A stretch of DNA of 48,687 nt from Burkholderiales bacterium. Lineage in GTDB: Bacteria; Pseudomonadota; Gammaproteobacteria; Burkholderiales; Casimicrobiaceae. Every line of letters starts with the position of its first letter. The first letter of the stretch is position 1. The position numbers were made by a program, and so were the translations under genes. This document shows positions 15,674-30,682 of the stretch, piece by piece. The stretch covers positions 1 through 48,687 of the forward strand of contig JAICKU010000024.1 of assembly GCA_025927765.1 (NCBI GenBank). Direction: 5' to 3'. The notes beneath the pieces are model-generated. The model ran no database searches. It had not been told where the DNA came from and saw only the letters and a program-made list of their open reading frames with translations.

Positions 15674-18600
15674 TCAGTCGCCGGGCGCGATTGAAACGAA
15701 CGGTTGCAATGACGCGTCACGATGGATGAGCGCGCGTTCGACGGCGCGCATCGTGCCGAGATCGAGCGGCGCCAGCGGCACGACGTCGCCGGCGACGAGC
15801 GCGGCGAGTGCGATGCCATCGCGAAAGAGGATGCGGTTCCCGGTCAGCGCGGGAACCTTCGCGCCGGGCAGCAACGTGCCGACGAGATTGAGCGGGTCAG
15901 CGGCGCTCACCACGGTCGTTTCGTTCGTCACCGGCGAGCGGCGCACGTCGCGCAGCAGCGAGATCGCATCCGGGAGCGCGAACTGCTCGCCGGTGATGCT
16001 CGCGACGAAGCGGCCGCCGCGCACGTCCCCGCGCGCTTCGAGGCGGCGATAGGTCCGGGAAAGCTCGCGCCACGGCGGAAGCCACGCCGCTTCGCGCGCA
16101 AGCACCTTCCACGAGACGACGCCGTAGCGGCGCAGCAGCGCGAGCGCGAGCGCCTCGACGTGCGCGTGGGCCGTCTCCGGTGCTGCTGCGTTGCGACGGC
16201 GTGCGAGTGACCAGCGGCCCGCGTCGTCGATGCCGAAAAGTGCACCGCGGCGCCGGCCGCGGCCGGCGAGCCGCTTGCGCTTCGCCGAGGGCGTCAGCAG
16301 CGCACGCAATCCGGCGAAGCTGTCGGAAGTCACGAGGCCCAGGGCGACCAGTTCGGCGAGCGCCTCCTCCACCTCGGTGCGCAGCATGCGCGTGGCGTCG
16401 ACGATCTCGTCGAAGAACGACGCGCCGTGCGTGCGCAGCATGTCGGCGATGCGCGCGGCGCGGCCGCTCGTCGCGATGCGCTCGGCATCGAGGGTCGGGG
16501 CCGTGTCGAGCCACGGCGCGCCGGCGCGCCGCGGCAGCAGCGCGATCGGTGTCGAGCGCAGCACGCCGGCGCTCGCCGTGGCGAGCGGCGGCGACAGCCG
16601 CGCCCACACGACACGGCCGGCCAGGCACGCGTCGTCGAGCCACGTGAAGTCGTAATCGATGAGGCGCAGCGGCAGCAGCTCGGACTCCCACGCCGCCGCG
16701 GGCGCCTCGAATCCGGCGAGCGATGCTACGACGGCGTCGAGCGCATCGGGACCCTGCCGAGCGTCGCCTCGCGCGATGCGCTGCCAGCGGAACAGAAAGC
16801 GGACGAAGTCCTGCGTCGAGACCGGCTGGATTTCCTGGCGCAGCCGCTTGACGGTGTAGCGATGGATGCGCGCGAGCAGCGCGCGGTCGCACCACTGGAC
16901 GTCGTCGATGCGGCGCGTGTAGCGCCCCTCCATCGCGACGCCTTCCTGCCCAAGACGTCCGAGGGCGATCGCGATTTCCGCCACCGGAACTGCGCAGGAT
17001 GCCGCCATCGTGGCGACGGTGACCGGGCCGAGCGCCTGCAGCCGGCTGCGGACGAGTTCGAGCACGGCGTCGTCGCGCGTCCACGCCTTCGCGCATTCGT
17101 CGGGTGCCTGGATCGACGGCGTACGCAAGGCGGTCGGATGCACGGCGTCGACGAGCGGCAGGCGCTCGGCGGCGACGAGCACGCGCGTCGCGGCGTCGAG
17201 CGTGACGAAGGTCGCGCGGCGTGCCTGCGCGAGCGCGTCGACCCAGGCGTGCGCGTCGTCGCCGAACGCCGCGACTTCGGCGTGCGCGAGAAAGCCGAGC
17301 GTCAGCAAGGCGTCGTGCAGTTCGTCGGCATCGCGCGCAAGCGGCCACGCCTCGCTCTTCACGCGGTCGATCGCGTCCTCGTCGAGATCGCCGAGGCGGC
17401 CCGCGGCGTCGTCCTCCGACCAGCGGCGTGCCATCACGGCCTGCGTGCGGCGCTCTTCGAGCGGCGCGTCGTCGAGATACGCGTAGGGACGCGCGTTGAG
17501 GATTTCCATCGCCAGCGGCGACGGCGCCGGCAGGTCGCGCGCGACGATGGCGATGTCGCCGCGCTCGATGCGCGTCAGCAGGCGCTCGAGGCCGTCGACG
17601 TCCATCGCGTCGTGCAGGCAATCGTCGATCACCTGCCGCACCAGCGGGTGATCCGGGATCTCGCGGTCGCCGACGATGTTCTCCGCGCACGCGATCTGGT
17701 CGGGGAACACGCTCGCGATCAGGTCCTCGGCGCGCATCCGCTGCAGCGGTGCCGGCACCTTCTTCCCGCCGCGAAAGCGCGGCAGCGCGAGCGACGTCGA
17801 CGCCACCCAGCGCCAGCGCGCCGCGAACATGGGTGCTGCGAGCATCGCCTGCACGAGCACGTCGCGCACCGTGCGTGCGTTGAGGTAGCGCGCGACGTCG
17901 GCGAGCGGGAAGCTGTGCGACGTCGACAGCGACAGCACGATCGCGTCCTCGGTGGCCGCCGCCTGCAGCTCGAAGTTGAAGCGCACGCAGAAGCGCTTGC
18001 GCAGCGCGAGCCCGAAGGCACGATTGATGCGGCTGCCGAACGGCGCGTGGATGACGAGCTGCATGCCGCCCGACTCGTCGAAGAAGCGCTCGAGCACGAG
18101 CGTGTCCTGCGTGGGCAGCGTACCGAGCACGGCGTGCGCGCTCGCGAGGTACTCGACGAGCTGCGAGCGCGCGGCGGCGCCGACGCCTTCGGCAAAACGA
18201 GCGTCCGACCCACTTTCCTGTCTGAACCGTGCGCAAAGCCGCGACACCGCGTACGACAGCTCGTCGCTGCGCGCCGGCGCTTCGCCCAGCCAGAACGGGA
18301 TGTTCGGCGCCTGACCCTGCGCGTCCTCGACGCGCACGCGTCCCGCCTCGATGCGGCGGATCCGGTACGACGTGTTGCCGAGCTGGAACACGTCGCCGGC
18401 GAGGCTCTCGACCGCGAAGTCCTCGTTGACCGTGCCGACCATGTGTCCGGCAGGCTCGAGGATCACCTCGTAATCGGCCGTGTCCGGGATCGCGCCGCCG
18501 GACGTCACGGCCGTCATGCGCGCGCCGCGCCGCGCGCGCAGCATGCCGTTCACGGCGTCGCGGTGCAGGAACGCGCCCGCGTGACCGCGCTGCGTGGTGA

Positions 18601-19963
18601 AGCCGTCGGCGAGCATGCGCACGACCTCGAGGTAATCGTCGTACGCCAGTTCGCGATACGGCCACGCGGTCGTGACGAGCGCGTAGAGATCGCGCTCGTG
18701 CACGTCGCGCCCGGCCACCTCCGCGACGATCTGCTGCGCGAGCACGTCGAGCGGCTTCGCCGGAATGACCAGCCGGTCGAGTTCGCCGCGTTGCACGGCC
18801 TCGAGCAGCGCCGCGCATTCGACGAGATCGTCGCGCGACAGCGGAAACAACCGCGCCTTCGGCGTGCCGCTCACCTGATGGCCCGCACGGCCGGCGCGCT
18901 GCAGGAACGTCGCGATCGAGCGCGGCGAGCCGATCTGGCAGACGAGGTCCACGTCGCCGATATCGATGCCGAGTTCGAGCGACGCAGTCGCGACGAGCGC
19001 CCGCAGCTCGCCGTTCTTGAGGCGCGTCTCGGCGACGAGGCGCAGCTCCTTCGCCATGCTGCCGTGATGCGCGCCGACGTGCTCGGCGCCCACCAGCTCG
19101 GCCAGATGACGCGTGACGCGCTCCGCCATACGGCGCGTGTTCACGAACACGAGCGTCGTGCGATGCGTGGCGACGAGATCGGCGAGCCGCGCGTACACCT
19201 GCTGCCACGTCTCGTTCGACATCACCGCCTCGAGCGGCGACGCCGGCACTTCGAGCGCGAGATCCCGGTGCCGCATATGACCGTCGTCGACGATCTCGCA
19301 GCTCCCGTTCGGGCCGGCCAGAAAACGCGCGACGTCCTCGATCGGCTTTTGTGTCGCCGACAGGCCGACGCGCACGAGCGGCCGCCCGGCGAGCGCCTCG
19401 AGGCGCGCGACCGACAGCGCGAGATGGCTGCCGCGCTTGTTCGGCGCGAGCGCGTGGATTTCGTCGACGATCACGCTGCGTGTCGTCGACAGCATGCGAC
19501 GGCCCGACGCCGAGCCCAGCAGCACGTACAGCGACTCGGGCGTGGTGACGACGATGTGCGGCGGACGCTTGCGCATCGCCGCGCGTTCGTGCTGCGTGGT
19601 GTCGCCGGTGCGCACGAGCGTGCGGATCGCAACGTCCGGATCGCCGCGCGCGCGAAGCTCGTCGCGAATGCCGGCGAGCGGCACTTCGAGGTTCTTGCGC
19701 ACGTCGTTCGACAGCGCCTTCAGCGGCGAGACGTAGACCACCGACGTTTCGTCGCGCAATGTGCCCTGCTCGATGCCCTCGCGCACCAGCGCGTCGATCG
19801 ACGCGAGGAACGCCGCGAGCGTCTTGCCCGAGCCGGTGGGTGCGGCGATCAGGACGTTGCGTCCCGCGGCCACGTGCGGCCACGCCCGCGCCTGCGCCGG
19901 CGTGGGTGCTGCGAACGCCTTGCCGAACCACGCGCAAACGGCAGGATGAAACACGTTGTTCAT
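15674..19963 (-). CDS. lhr: Lhr-type ATP-dependent DNA helicase (full length)
   Basis: A 1,429-residue superfamily 2 helicase of the large Lhr type (E. coli Lhr is about 1,540), implicated in DNA repair; it moves 3' to 5' on DNA. Walker A is [10 protein letters not shown] with Lys47; the DEIH box is in [14 protein letters not shown]; motif V/VI are [12 protein letters not shown] and [11 protein letters not shown]. The Lhr core and a large C-terminal region follow without interruption. The length shows this is not the shorter ligase-associated Lhr (about 800 residues). The ATG at 19963 is preferred to a GTG at 19978. Transcribed divergently from the exported-protein/kinase operon. Confidence 0.95.
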
Positions 19964-20083
19964 GCCTGATTGTGACACGTTTGCATCACCTCTTCCGCCG
20001 CTCGGCGGGAGACCTCTTCCGAGCGTGGATTTCGGGGTTTCGCTGCGCTAACCTCGCGGACTCCCCAACCGCGCGAATCGACG

Positions 20084-27007: not shown

Positions 27008-27856
27008 GTGGCTGATCGCGCAACGCGCCGTCTCGTCACGGTCGCGGCGGCGCTGGCGCTCGCCGGTTGCGTCACGATCATGCCGACGCCGCGCGCCATC
27101 CTGCGCCACGCGGGCGCGGTATCGCTGCCATGCGACGTCGCCCGCCCGCTCGCGGCAACGTTTCGCACGAGCGCACTCGACCCGCATGCGATTCGGATCC
27201 TCACCTGGAACATTCACAAGCAGGCCGACGCCGGTTGGCTGCGCGATCTCCGCCGCTTCGCCGCGCAAAGCGACGTCGTGCTGCTACAGGAAGCGGTGCT
27301 GGACGAGCCCATCACGCATCTGATCGACGGCGAAGGCTTCGATTGGGCGATGGCGAGCTCGTTCGAGTTCGCCGGCGCCGATATCGGCGTGATGACCGTG
27401 TCGCGCGTCGCGCCGCTCGACGTGTGCACGCTGCGCGCCGACGAACCGCTGCTGCACATTCCGAAGTCGACCGTCGTCGCGCGCTATGCGCTGGCCGGAC
27501 GCGTGCAGACGCTCGCGATCGCCAACATCCACGCGATCAACTTCTCGCTGTCGCTGGATGCGTACCGTGCGCAGCTGGACGCGATCGCCGACACGCTCGC
27601 GGAGCACCGCGGGCCGCTGATCGTCGCAGGGGATCTCAACACCTGGTCGTCCGCGCGCAGCGCCGCGGTGCGCGACGTCGCGTCACGCCTGGGCCTGGCC
27701 GAAGTCGCGCTGCCGGGGAACGCACGCAGCCGCTTTCTCGGGCGCGAGGTCGACCATATCTACGTGCGGGGACTCGCACCCGTCGCGGCGTACGCCGTGG
27801 CGGTCACGTCGTCGGATCACAATCCGGTGCTCGCGACGCTGCGCGCCGGGAAGTGA
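27008..27856 (+). CDS. endonuclease/exonuclease/phosphatase family lipoprotein
   Basis: A 282-residue EEP-superfamily hydrolase (fold of DNase I, exonuclease III and sphingomyelinases). A signal peptide ends in a lipobox, ALALAGC, with Cys21, so it is likely a membrane-anchored periplasmic lipoprotein. Catalytic motifs are present in order: LTWNIHKQ (Asn), VLLQEAVL (Glu), VAGDLNTW (Asp and Asn), VDHIYV, and TSSDHNPVL (Asp-His). Substrate may be nucleic acid or phospholipid. The GTG start is the only one that keeps the signal peptide intact. Confidence 0.9.
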   Translation: MADRATRRLVTVAAALALAGCVTIMPTPRAILRHAGAVSLPCDVARPLAATFRTSALDPHAIRILTWNIHKQADAGWLRDLRRFAAQSDVVLLQEAVLDEPITHLIDGEGFDWAMASSFEFAGADIGVMTVSRVAPLDVCTLRADEPLLHIPKSTVVARYALAGRVQTLAIANIHAINFSLSLDAYRAQLDAIADTLAEHRGPLIVAGDLNTWSSARSAAVRDVASRLGLAEVALPGNARSRFLGREVDHIYVRGLAPVAAYAVAVTSSDHNPVLATLRAGK

Positions 27857-28060: not shown

Positions 28061-29110
28061 GTGCGTGCAAGTGCACCGGTGGCCGTGAACCTGATCGAGC
28101 TTTCCCCCGCAGGCCTCTACTGCCCGCCCGGCCGATTCCACATCGACCCCTGGCGACCGGTTGCGTGCGCGGTGATCACGCACGCGCACGCCGATCACGC
28201 GCGCGCCGGTAGCGAACGCTATCTCGCCTGCGACGACGCGGCGCAGGTGCTGCGCGTGCGACTGCCAGGTGCGGCGATCGACACGCTGCCATATGGCGCG
28301 CCCATGCTGCGCGACGGCGTGCGCGTGTCGCTGCACCCTGCCGGACACGTACTCGGCGCAGCGCAGGTGCGCATCGAGTATCGCGGCGAGGTCTGGGTCG
28401 CATCCGGCGACTACAAGCGCGACGCCGATCCGACGTGCGCGCCGTTCGAGCCGCTCCGCGCGCACGCGTTCGTCACCGAGTCGACGTTCGGCCTGCCGAT
28501 CTTCCGTTGGCGCGCGCCCGCAGAGGTCGTCGACGACATCGCGGGCTGGTGGCGCGCGAACGCCGCGGCCGGCCGCACGAGCATGCTGTTCTGCTATGCG
28601 TTCGGCAAGGCGCAGCGCATCGCCGCGATGCTCGCGCGCGCACGCGCGCTCAACGTCGGGCCGCTCGCCGCGCACGGGGCGATGTCCGCACTGAACGACG
28701 CGTACCGCGCATCGGGCGTGGACCTGCCGCCGATCGTGCACGCGACCGCCCTCGCCGCTGCCGACGTGCCGCGCGCGCTGGTGCTGGCACCCCCGTCTGC
28801 GGCCGGCTCGCCGTGGATGCGCCGGTTCGGCGACTTCGCGAGCGGCTTCGCGTCGGGCTGGATGCAGACACGCGCCGGACGCCGGCGCCGCGGCATCGAG
28901 CGCGGCTTCGCGCTGTCCGATCACGTCGACTGGCCGGGCCTCCTCGCGACGATCGCGGACACCGGTGCGTCACGCGTGCTCGTGACGCACGGCGAATCGT
29001 CCGCGGTCGTGCGCTGGCTGCGCGAGCACGGGCACGATGCCGCGGCGCTGGCCACCGAGTTCGCCGCGGAAGGCGAGCCCGAGGCGATGCCCACCGCCGG
29101 CGCCGCGTGA
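28061..29110 (+). CDS. ligase-associated DNA exonuclease (metallo-beta-lactamase/beta-CASP type)
   Basis: A 349-residue nuclease of the family found beside bacterial ATP-dependent DNA ligases, related to YSH1/CPSF-type beta-CASP enzymes. Metal-binding motifs are intact: VITHAHADHARAG (H-x-H-x-D-H), LHPAGHVLGAAQV, VASGDYKRDADP (Asp), and the late LSDHVDW and VLVTHGESSAV blocks. Known members resect or process ends for a repair ligase. The start GTG at 28061 is tentative; GTG or later codons in the frame would shorten it by a few residues. The ligase-like gene follows after six bases, a usual arrangement for the family, but that partner is abnormal (see next entry). Confidence 0.93.
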   Translation: MRASAPVAVNLIELSPAGLYCPPGRFHIDPWRPVACAVITHAHADHARAGSERYLACDDAAQVLRVRLPGAAIDTLPYGAPMLRDGVRVSLHPAGHVLGAAQVRIEYRGEVWVASGDYKRDADPTCAPFEPLRAHAFVTESTFGLPIFRWRAPAEVVDDIAGWWRANAAAGRTSMLFCYAFGKAQRIAAMLARARALNVGPLAAHGAMSALNDAYRASGVDLPPIVHATALAAADVPRALVLAPPSAAGSPWMRRFGDFASGFASGWMQTRAGRRRRGIERGFALSDHVDWPGLLATIADTGASRVLVTHGESSAVVRWLREHGHDAAALATEFAAEGEPEAMPTAGAA

Positions 29111-29116
29111 TCGCCG

Positions 29117-30022
29117 ATGGAAGCGTTCGCGAGGCTCCATCGGACGCTCGAGGCGGAACGCGACGACGCGCGCATCGCGGCGATCGGCGCGTACGTGCGC
29201 GACGCGCCGCCGGACGATGCGGCGTTGGCGGTGTCGCTGTTGAAAGGCCAGCGGCCTCGCCGCATCCTGCCGGCAGCCGTCATGCGCGACGCGGCAATGC
29301 GCGCGGCCGGCATCGCGCGCTGGCTGTTCGATGCGTGCAAAACGCAGGTCGGGGATGTCGCCGAGACCGTTGCGCTCGTCGTGCCAAGCGCGTCGCGCAC
29401 GACGTTGCACGGCCTCGCCTGGTGGAGCGAGCGCATCGCTTCGCTCGCGACGGTGGACGCAGGCGCTGCAGCCACGCGCCTCGTGGAGGATTGGGACAGC
29501 CTGTCGACCGACGCGCGCATCGTCTACGCCAAGCTCGTCAGCGGCACGTACCGCTCGCCGGTGTCGCCGGCGCTGGTCGATCGCGCGCTCGCCCCGAATT
29601 TCAGCGTGCCGGTCGATCCACGGCCGCCCTTTGCGGATGCATCGCTTCGCGTCGACGCCGTGCTCGTTTACGCCGAGCCGGCGGCCCCCAAGGGCTTTGC
29701 ACTCGGCGCGTTCACGTTCGCGCTGTGGGACGAGCGCGGCGGTGCGCGCACGCTGACGCCCATCGCCAGGATCGACGACGTGGCCGAGCACGAGCGCTCG
29801 GCGCTCGAAGCGATCGTGCGTCGCACGACCGTCGAGCGCTTCGGTCCGGTGCGCCGCGTGACCCCGACGCTCGTGTGCGAACTCGCGTTCGAGGCTGTCG
29901 AAGCGTCCGGGCGGCGCAAGTCGGGATGGCGGCTGCGCGCGCCCCGCGTAGTGCGCGTGCGCGACGATGCGTCGGTCGACGACGCCGCCACGCTCGCCGA
30001 CCTCGGCAAGTACGCGCGTTGA
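29117..30022 (+). CDS. DNA ligase homologue lacking the adenylation domain
   Basis: A 301-residue protein built from the two outer parts of an ATP-dependent DNA ligase (family about 530 residues). Residues 1-159 match the N-terminal DNA-binding domain (MEAFARLHRTLEAERDD, VGDVAETVALVV, YAKLVSGTYRSPVSPALVDRA). Residues 179-301 match the OB domain (VDAVLVYAE, FTFALWDE, IVRRTTVERFGPVR, CELAFEAVEASGRRKSG). The roughly 230-residue nucleotidyltransferase domain with the KxDG lysine is absent, in frame, and only about 19 linker residues lie between. In the OB domain, motif VI (normally R-x-D-K) has become RVRDDAS. It cannot form a ligase-AMP. Probably a non-catalytic nick- or end-binding protein, or a decaying gene; long open frame and coupling to the exonuclease favour the former. 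Confidence 0.9.
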   Translation: MEAFARLHRTLEAERDDARIAAIGAYVRDAPPDDAALAVSLLKGQRPRRILPAAVMRDAAMRAAGIARWLFDACKTQVGDVAETVALVVPSASRTTLHGLAWWSERIASLATVDAGAAATRLVEDWDSLSTDARIVYAKLVSGTYRSPVSPALVDRALAPNFSVPVDPRPPFADASLRVDAVLVYAEPAAPKGFALGAFTFALWDERGGARTLTPIARIDDVAEHERSALEAIVRRTTVERFGPVRRVTPTLVCELAFEAVEASGRRKSGWRLRAPRVVRVRDDASVDDAATLADLGKYAR

Positions 30023-30028
30023 GCGGTG

Positions 30029-30682
30029 CTACTGCAGCGCGTTCGAGACGACCTTGTCCCAGGTCAGCGTCAGCGTGTTGACGTCGCGGCGCGCGAGATC
30101 GAGCCCCAGATCGGTGGCCGGCACGACGAGCCTGAAGCCGCCACCGACGCCGCGCGCGACGTCGATCACGAGCGTCAGCTTGAGCGACGTGAGCCGCACG
30201 CACGGCGGCTCGGCGGACGAGCGCATGAACGCGTCGATCGCCGCGTTCACGCTCTTCGCGACGTCGCCGGCGCCCGCCACCTCCTCGCCCACCTCGTAGA
30301 TGCGCGCCGGGCCGGTCACGTCGAACTTGAGCGCCATGTCCTGCGTCCATTTCCGATCCGCGGACGCGGACGCGTAGGGGACGAGCGCGACGCCGCCGAG
30401 CGGAATCGCGACGAGCCGCACCTGACCGCCCACGCCGATCGTGCCGAGGCGCTGCAGGTCGAGCGCGACCTGCGCGTTGCGCAGGTCGATTTCGCGCGGC
30501 TCGCCCGTGCCGCACGCCGCGCTCGCGCTCTTCACGCGCCAGTGCACGGCGCGAAGCTCCGTCTTGAGGTCGTCGAAGAACTCGGGCAGCGGCTTGCCGA
30601 CGACGGGCGCCGGCGGCGCGCTCGCGCACGCGGCGACGAGGCTTGCGCAGACGACGCCGGCGAGCGCGACGAACGGCTTCAT
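30029..30682 (-). CDS. lipoprotein with two strand-rich repeats, trypco2-like
   Basis: A 217-residue predicted lipoprotein: signal peptide MKPFVALAGVVCASLVAAC with lipobox VAAC. The mature part seems to hold two copies of a helix-then-strand unit: LPEFFDDLKTELRAVHWRV then VALDLQRLGTIGVGGQVRLV, and VNAAIDAFMRSS then LTLVIDVARGVGGGFRLVV ending NTLTLTWDKV. This pattern resembles trypsin-co-occurring domain 2, reported next to proteases; the resemblance is by eye and not proven. Its ATG overlaps the stop of the emfourin gene by four bases, so it is the last gene of the protease operon and may be tied to protease control. Confidence 0.75.
   Translation of the reverse strand: MKPFVALAGVVCASLVAACASAPPAPVVGKPLPEFFDDLKTELRAVHWRVKSASAACGTGEPREIDLRNAQVALDLQRLGTIGVGGQVRLVAIPLGGVALVPYASASADRKWTQDMALKFDVTGPARIYEVGEEVAGAGDVAKSVNAAIDAFMRSSAEPPCVRLTSLKLTLVIDVARGVGGGFRLVVPATDLGLDLARRDVNTLTLTWDKVVSNALQ

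Follow-up and report, generated by a model that had tools for sequence, protein, structure and literature searches.

In the account of bacterial ATP-dependent ligases given in PMC10140301, a cluster of Lhr helicase, phosphodiesterase and MBL nuclease is the setting of LigB, the most widespread of these enzymes, and both the precise role of this LigB/Lhr cluster and the damage it targets are described there as not known. The same source reports nuclease-ligase fusions within the LigB class, in which an RMMBL domain is fused to the DNA-binding domain (DBD) of the ligase (PMC10140301). For Artemis, the binding site on the ligase IV DBD is described as its first two helices (PMC3664939), and Dnl4 that has lost its catalytic activity remains able to promote imprecise end joining in the experiments reported in PMC3694833. 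Among the papers listed in literature searches, which covered few subscription journals, there was no report of a natural DNA ligase without an adenylation domain.

Here we describe a short ligase homologue located in the window (i.e. the whole stretch of 48,687 nucleotides that was analyzed). It is a single-genome variant of a known ligase family, and re-use and decay are both in play. We tentatively read it as an offshoot of the TIGR04120 family that is confined to this lineage, can no longer ligate, and would serve as a non-catalytic partner of the exonuclease encoded upstream.

Domain content of the short ligase and its locus

The frame at 29117..30022 (+ strand; ORF call and NCBIfam matches) encodes a ligase homologue of 301 amino acids without an adenylation domain. 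It matched two NCBIfam families, both of ATP-dependent DNA ligases: NF006701 with 218.2 bits (cut-off 543; residues 1-164 on profile positions 1-167) and TIGR04120 with 194.9 bits (cut-off 400; residues 177-296 on positions 401-522), the latter match being spread over two stretches. Scored separately with NF006701, the two halves of the protein gave E-values of 1e-32 and 7.7e-31. Profile positions ~168-400, corresponding to the adenylation domain, had no counterpart in the short ligase in either the NCBIfam profiles or the alignments. Pfam detected the OB part only, below its threshold (25.5 of 27.5 bits). Profile matches and alignments thus confirm that the ORF encodes two domains of an ATP-dependent DNA ligase of the TIGR04120 type, the DBD and the OB domain, and that the adenylation domain is missing in frame. 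The first-pass annotation had described just such a frame, matching only the two end domains. Its figure of about 530 residues for full-length members also agrees with the 40 intact relatives aligned here (529-643 amino acids after trimming).

From profiles and alignment, the DBD comprises residues 1-164 (29117..29608, +) and the OB domain residues 179-301 (29651..30019, +); the start methionine coincides with the family start. In the alignment, the two are joined by a proline-rich junction (residues 165-178; 29609..29650, +), where a net 238 residues carrying motifs I-V are gone relative to the syntenic ligase of a congener (G021). Compared with TIGR04120 members, the short ligase has homologous DBD and OB domains at the orthologous locus, but it lacks the motif I lysine (KxDG) and motifs III-V, scores below 400 bits, and reads RDDA instead of RxDK at motif VI. 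This motif VI region (RVRDDA, residues 280-285; 29954..29971, +) had been called degenerate, which is correct in that the RxDK lysine is replaced by alanine (K285A); the change concerns a single key residue and not the entire motif, since R282 and D284 are kept. An OB loop at residues 189-194 (29681..29698, +) reads AAPKGF in place of the GHGRRA of most intact relatives, so that a conserved histidine and one arginine are absent from it. AlphaFold2 applied to the single sequence gave a pLDDT of 40.6, too low for use.

The gene directly upstream (28061..29110, +) encodes a ligase-associated exonuclease of the MBL/beta-CASP type (TIGR04122, 450.8 bits, cut-off 325). Its motifs THAHADH, HPAGHVLG, SGDYK and SDHVDW, which we take to be the MBL metal motifs, were all intact in the alignment. 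Among sequences of structure chains, CPSF73-type proteins were the best match (E 2.2e-9), and DCLRE1A matched weakly (E 0.004). The last base of the exonuclease stop codon is 29110, and the short ligase starts with an ATG at 29117, leaving a spacer of six bases (29111..29116, +). The intact repair exonuclease noted at this distance in the first-pass annotation is thus supported by score and motifs alike.

Several other features of the region were recorded. The frame directly upstream of the exonuclease (27008-27856, +) encodes an endonuclease/exonuclease/phosphatase-family protein (NF003840, 241.8 bits, cut-off 163), which is likewise found upstream in G021. A 548-amino-acid, arginine-rich frame (28435-30081, +) overlaps both genes in another frame; shadow frames of such length often occur in G+C-rich DNA, and nothing marks this one as a gene. 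A 1457-residue frame (15677-20047, -), ~8 kb away from the exonuclease, encodes a relative of large Lhr-type helicases (NF010338, 666.8 bits, below the cut-off of 849). The true ligase-associated helicase of the module (TIGR04121) is intact on another contig, C117 (1076.2 bits, cut-off 850).

Gene order was common to the window between ~24.2 and 36.8 kb and contig C612 of G021 (12,888 bases), with identities of 56% for the endonuclease/phosphatase-family gene and 63% for the exonuclease; downstream genes were also common to both. At the same place, G021 encodes a ligase of 539 residues. Everything between the end of the DBD and the closing residues of motif V (WWKWKIDP), these included, is missing from the short ligase, whose sequence picks up again at VDAVLVYA, where the OB domain begins. 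On this alignment, and with domain limits that are partly our assumption, the loss is in frame and close to the domain boundaries. Synteny with a complete ligase shows a net loss of 238 residues in the lineage of the window genome (G000). G000 was grouped with G021 on the basis of synteny, because trees leave the place of G000 unsettled: the exonuclease tree (15 rows left of 22 after removal of duplicates) did not resolve G000, G021 and G013, and in the ligase-domain tree the short ligase was not beside G021, a placement that is unsure for so long a branch.

Divergence of, and evidence for constraint on, the remaining domains

The 40 intact relatives were represented by one row per locus, locus repeats being dropped. 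Among the resulting 41 proteins, the short ligase had the lowest mean identity in both the DBD (0.40; next 0.47; median 0.59) and the OB domain (0.45; next 0.63; median 0.74). It kept 79/118 columns conserved to at least 90% (39/51 in the DBD and 40/67 in the OB domain), whereas the lowest shares among the intact relatives are 85% and 91%, respectively. Among the sites no longer present are the lysine of motif VI, the OB GHGRR loop and the FAKAYSGLTD segment, as well as the RVGVS stretch of the DBD, which reads RSPVS. Motif VI still has its two arginines and its aspartate, and FGPVRxVTPTLV and VGDxAET are retained. In protein trees, the branch of the short ligase measured 5.46 (median 0.34), and that of the G000 exonuclease 0.80 (median 0.33) despite its intact motifs.

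Selection was estimated with a joint codon model for seven genomes, in which branch lengths were common to the exonuclease (323 codons), the DBD (165) and the OB domain (120). On the G000 branch, omega was 0.081 for the exonuclease, 0.252 for the DBD and 0.169 for the OB domain, compared with 0.081, 0.105 and 0.052 elsewhere (i.e. a rise of ~2.4-fold for the DBD and ~3.3-fold for the OB domain, and none for the exonuclease); as synonymous sites are saturated, these figures show direction, not size. A model in which the ligase parts change at the ratio of the exonuclease was rejected (2dlnL 40.75, 2 df), as was omega = 1 on the G000 branch (2dlnL 29.6 for the DBD and 47.4 for the OB domain). 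We relied on the joint model because separate-gene models gave saturated branch lengths. In these, omega on the G000 branch went from 0.095 to 0.170 for the exonuclease (2dlnL 3.49) and from 0.027 to 0.048 for the DBD (2dlnL 3.16, branch length at bound), and did not rise for the OB domain. The dN/dS values proposed as a check in the first-pass annotation were thus raised, but below neutrality.

Column retention and a drift simulation provided evidence independent of synonymous sites. Retention was counted over residues 1-160 (DBD) and 179-297 (OB), with variable columns taken from those where G021 and G013 agree. In the DBD, 31/41 columns conserved to at least 95% were kept, compared with 25/63 variable columns; in the OB domain the counts were 37/59 and 19/42, and the idea that OB invariants are retained no better than variable sites was dropped. 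For the simulation, the G021 domains were mutated randomly, without indels, until near-invariant losses matched the observed 38/116 (two base compositions, with 300 runs apiece). Simulated sequences contained 2.3-2.9 stops, and the short ligase none (P 0.10 and 0.05). Hydrophobic positions were kept in 69/76 cases, against 61.1-62.5 in the simulations (P 0.007 and 0.023). Acidic positions (13/15, P 0.07-0.12) were not clearly above drift, small positions (51/63, P 0.87-0.95) were not above it, and basic positions (18/23, P 0.37-0.39) behaved as under drift. Overall class retention alone was not significant (P 0.057 and 0.060); the absence of stops together with at least the observed class retention had P-values of 0.007 and 0.003. 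The simulation covers substitutions; that the frame has stayed open across 301 codons further favors retention. Codon-position G+C of the short ligase was also close to that of the exonuclease.

Free neutral decay fits these data poorly (omega = 1 rejected, no stop, hydrophobic core over-retained), yet the protein has evolved far faster than its relatives. The sequence thus offers some evidence for the retention of a folded protein, and none for that of a DNA-binding surface. The stable protein proposed in the first-pass annotation is supported insofar as the sequence has not drifted freely, and qualified by the raised omega of both domains. That annotation had also named the pattern that would speak against it, namely complete ligases in all relatives together with relaxed selection on this copy. 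Half of this pattern was found: relatives with the gene carry it complete except for two explained fragments, and omega is raised, though not to neutrality.

Distribution of the module and competing explanations

By protein search, a TIGR04120-type ligase was matched in 6/22 genomes of the genus, G000 included, and the exonuclease in the same six, which together with its intact motifs agrees with its proposed role as partner; four further weak exonuclease matches cover part of the query. In G014 and G020, one further ligase match each belongs to the other LigB, discussed below. Ligase and exonuclease lie on different contigs in G006, G016 and G008. The ligase and a full exonuclease match were both absent from 16/22 genomes, six of which retain the helicase. 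TIGR04121 helicases (E 1e-150) were found in 11/22 genomes, including these six; G008 has ligase and exonuclease and no helicase match at this level. Single absences are weak, as several of the genus genomes are incomplete. Within the genus, loss of the ligase/exonuclease/helicase module seems to follow a preferred course.

In wider samples, which overlap with one another and with that of the genus, ligase matches were obtained for 18/64 genomes of the family, 74/399 of the order, 14/369 of the class and 116/398 of the phylum. All matches listed sit in frames of at least 489 residues except those in G000, G090 and G1142; for the phylum, whose match rows are listed in part, a short frame among the weak matches could have escaped notice. 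The 145-amino-acid frame of G090 (order; L078, G090:C37:100000-112000) was rejected as a short form, being one frame of a ligase whose C-terminal part is spread over several frames, probably owing to a pseudogene or a sequencing frame error. The 116-amino-acid frame of G1142 (family) was rejected as well, since the contig that carries it, of 18,733 bases, ends there. The matches listed for the genus (22 genomes), the family (64), the order (399), the class (369) and the phylum (398) thus did not include a complete short form besides that of G000, nor did the protein search of 61 relatives give one; recurrence of the short form in relatives, a check suggested earlier, was not supported. A DNA pattern for the short spacing had no match in genome_contigs; this pattern is blunt, as it prefers G+C-rich codons and its two gaps vary by only 30 bases each, and long-gap versions with slightly different anchors matched 26 to 28 of 40 loci. 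A protein scan of genome_contigs and one scan of viral_contigs gave no relative.

A PF01068 search of G000 located adenylation domains at three places, all in complete ATP-dependent ligases: a complete ligase on contig C137 (NF002868, 700.4 bits, cut-off 641), a smaller ligase on C82 (NF006078, 450.7 bits, cut-off 296), and LigD on C27 (NF004628, 1093.6 bits, cut-off 895). We take the first to be LigB and the second to be LigC-like. The C137 kind also occurs in G021 (69%, cut by the contig edge), G014 and G020, so that redundancy probably preceded the loss.

A full-length gene disguised by an assembly or strain-mixing artefact is very improbable. The assembly is fragmented (148 contigs; completeness 95.64%) and the junction is known from assembled sequence alone; a slip, however, would leave normal flanks, whereas here both flanks have diverged (79 of the 118 conserved columns kept, against minima of 85% and 91% in intact relatives). 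Moreover, the motif VI lysine was lost ~100 residues from the junction, and the sole adenylation-domain matches in the genome are the three other ligases. As reads missing at the junction cannot give such divergence in the remaining domains, an assembly slip alone is unlikely, and the earlier claim of a real domain loss is borne out. We attach next to no weight to a split ligase with its adenylation domain encoded elsewhere: beyond the missing domain itself nothing suggests it, all three PF01068 matches in this assembly of 95.64% completeness lie in proteins whose family match extends past the adenylation domain, and the short ligase has lost the motif VI lysine. Also unlikely, if less so, is the DNA- or nick-binding clamp envisaged in the first-pass annotation, in which DBD and OB domain would still encircle nicked DNA and hold or block the exonuclease there. 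Basic positions were retained at the neutral rate (18/23), and the changed loops (GHGRR and FAKAYSGLTD in the OB domain, RVGVS in the DBD) are those that presumably face DNA. These points outweigh the net charge of both domains, which is within the range of intact relatives, the 18/23 conserved basic positions that are still basic, and the DBD-OB contacts that complete the ring in intact ligases, as described in PMC6698739.

A gene in decay is a serious possibility. The module would be in the process of being lost in the genus, and an internal deletion, harmless owing to the second complete LigB, would have inactivated the ligase and left an ORF that is still unbroken. Frequent loss is indicated by the 16/22 genomes without ligase and full exonuclease, six of them still with the helicase; a second LigB is found in both G000 and G021 (the G021 copy being cut by the contig edge); and a ligase broken over frames is known in G090. 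The raised omega of both ligase domains, not shared by the exonuclease in the joint model, and the very long protein branch also fit this explanation. Against it stand the rejection of omega = 1, a frame of 301 codons without a stop, hydrophobic positions over-retained relative to matched drift, and a codon-position G+C near that of the exonuclease, although these counter-tests rest on saturated synonymous divergence or modest P-values. We favor retention as an adaptor, narrowly, with decay nearly as likely. Synteny with G021, omega below 1, column retention, the drift simulations, the published nuclease-ligase and Dnl4 precedents, the intact exonuclease, its co-occurrence with the ligase in 6/22 genomes, the three other ligases and the helicase speak for the adaptor; the restriction to one genome, a branch of 5.46 against 0.34, class retention at P 0.057-0.06, basic and small positions that are not over-retained, and the long branch of the exonuclease itself (0.80 against 0.33) count against it.

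Under the adaptor reading, the nucleotidyltransferase domain was lost near the domain boundaries after the split from G021, as synteny with the complete copy shows. DBD and OB domain would have remained an open frame, probably for a folded protein, under purifying selection that was weakened without vanishing, a reading with statistical support. The remnant would most likely have been retained because its alpha-helical DBD holds the upstream MBL-fold exonuclease or brings it to DNA, and sealing would fall to the other ATP-dependent ligases of the cell. Perhaps the protein is a natural bacterial ligase pseudoenzyme, consisting of DBD and OB without the nucleotidyltransferase domain, that serves the ligase-associated MBL exonuclease as an adaptor subunit.

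Comparison with known systems

If the adaptor reading is true, the ligase has a structural role in the LigB/Lhr repair cluster apart from sealing, and a natural split of binding domains from chemistry points to a testable physical partnership between ligase and nuclease. If there is decay only, the locus shows how this module is taken apart when a second LigB is at hand.

The short form resembles the 'cisplatin damage response' ligase of TIGR04120/NF006701 (LigB type) in the locus it shares with G021, in the order of its end domains and in its exonuclease neighbour. It differs from that ligase by the absence of the adenylation domain (motifs I-V) and of the motif VI lysine, and by scores below both cut-offs. 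Artemis, an MBL/beta-CASP nuclease, was itself absent among the matches of the window exonuclease, which included CPSF73-type proteins and DCLRE1A. The Artemis-ligase IV pair is similar in that a nuclease is partnered with the DBD of an ATP-dependent ligase; there, however, ligase IV is complete and the contact described is made by Artemis peptide residues 485-495 (PMC3664939), whereas any contact within the window pair is hypothetical. The nuclease-ligase fusions reported in PMC10140301 are ligases that carry an added nuclease domain at the N-terminus, whereas in the window two ORFs with six bases between them encode the nuclease and a ligase homologue that lacks the adenylation domain. Dead yeast Dnl4 provides a likeness as a ligase with a non-catalytic role, but the proteins described in PMC3694833 are laboratory point mutants with the full set of domains.
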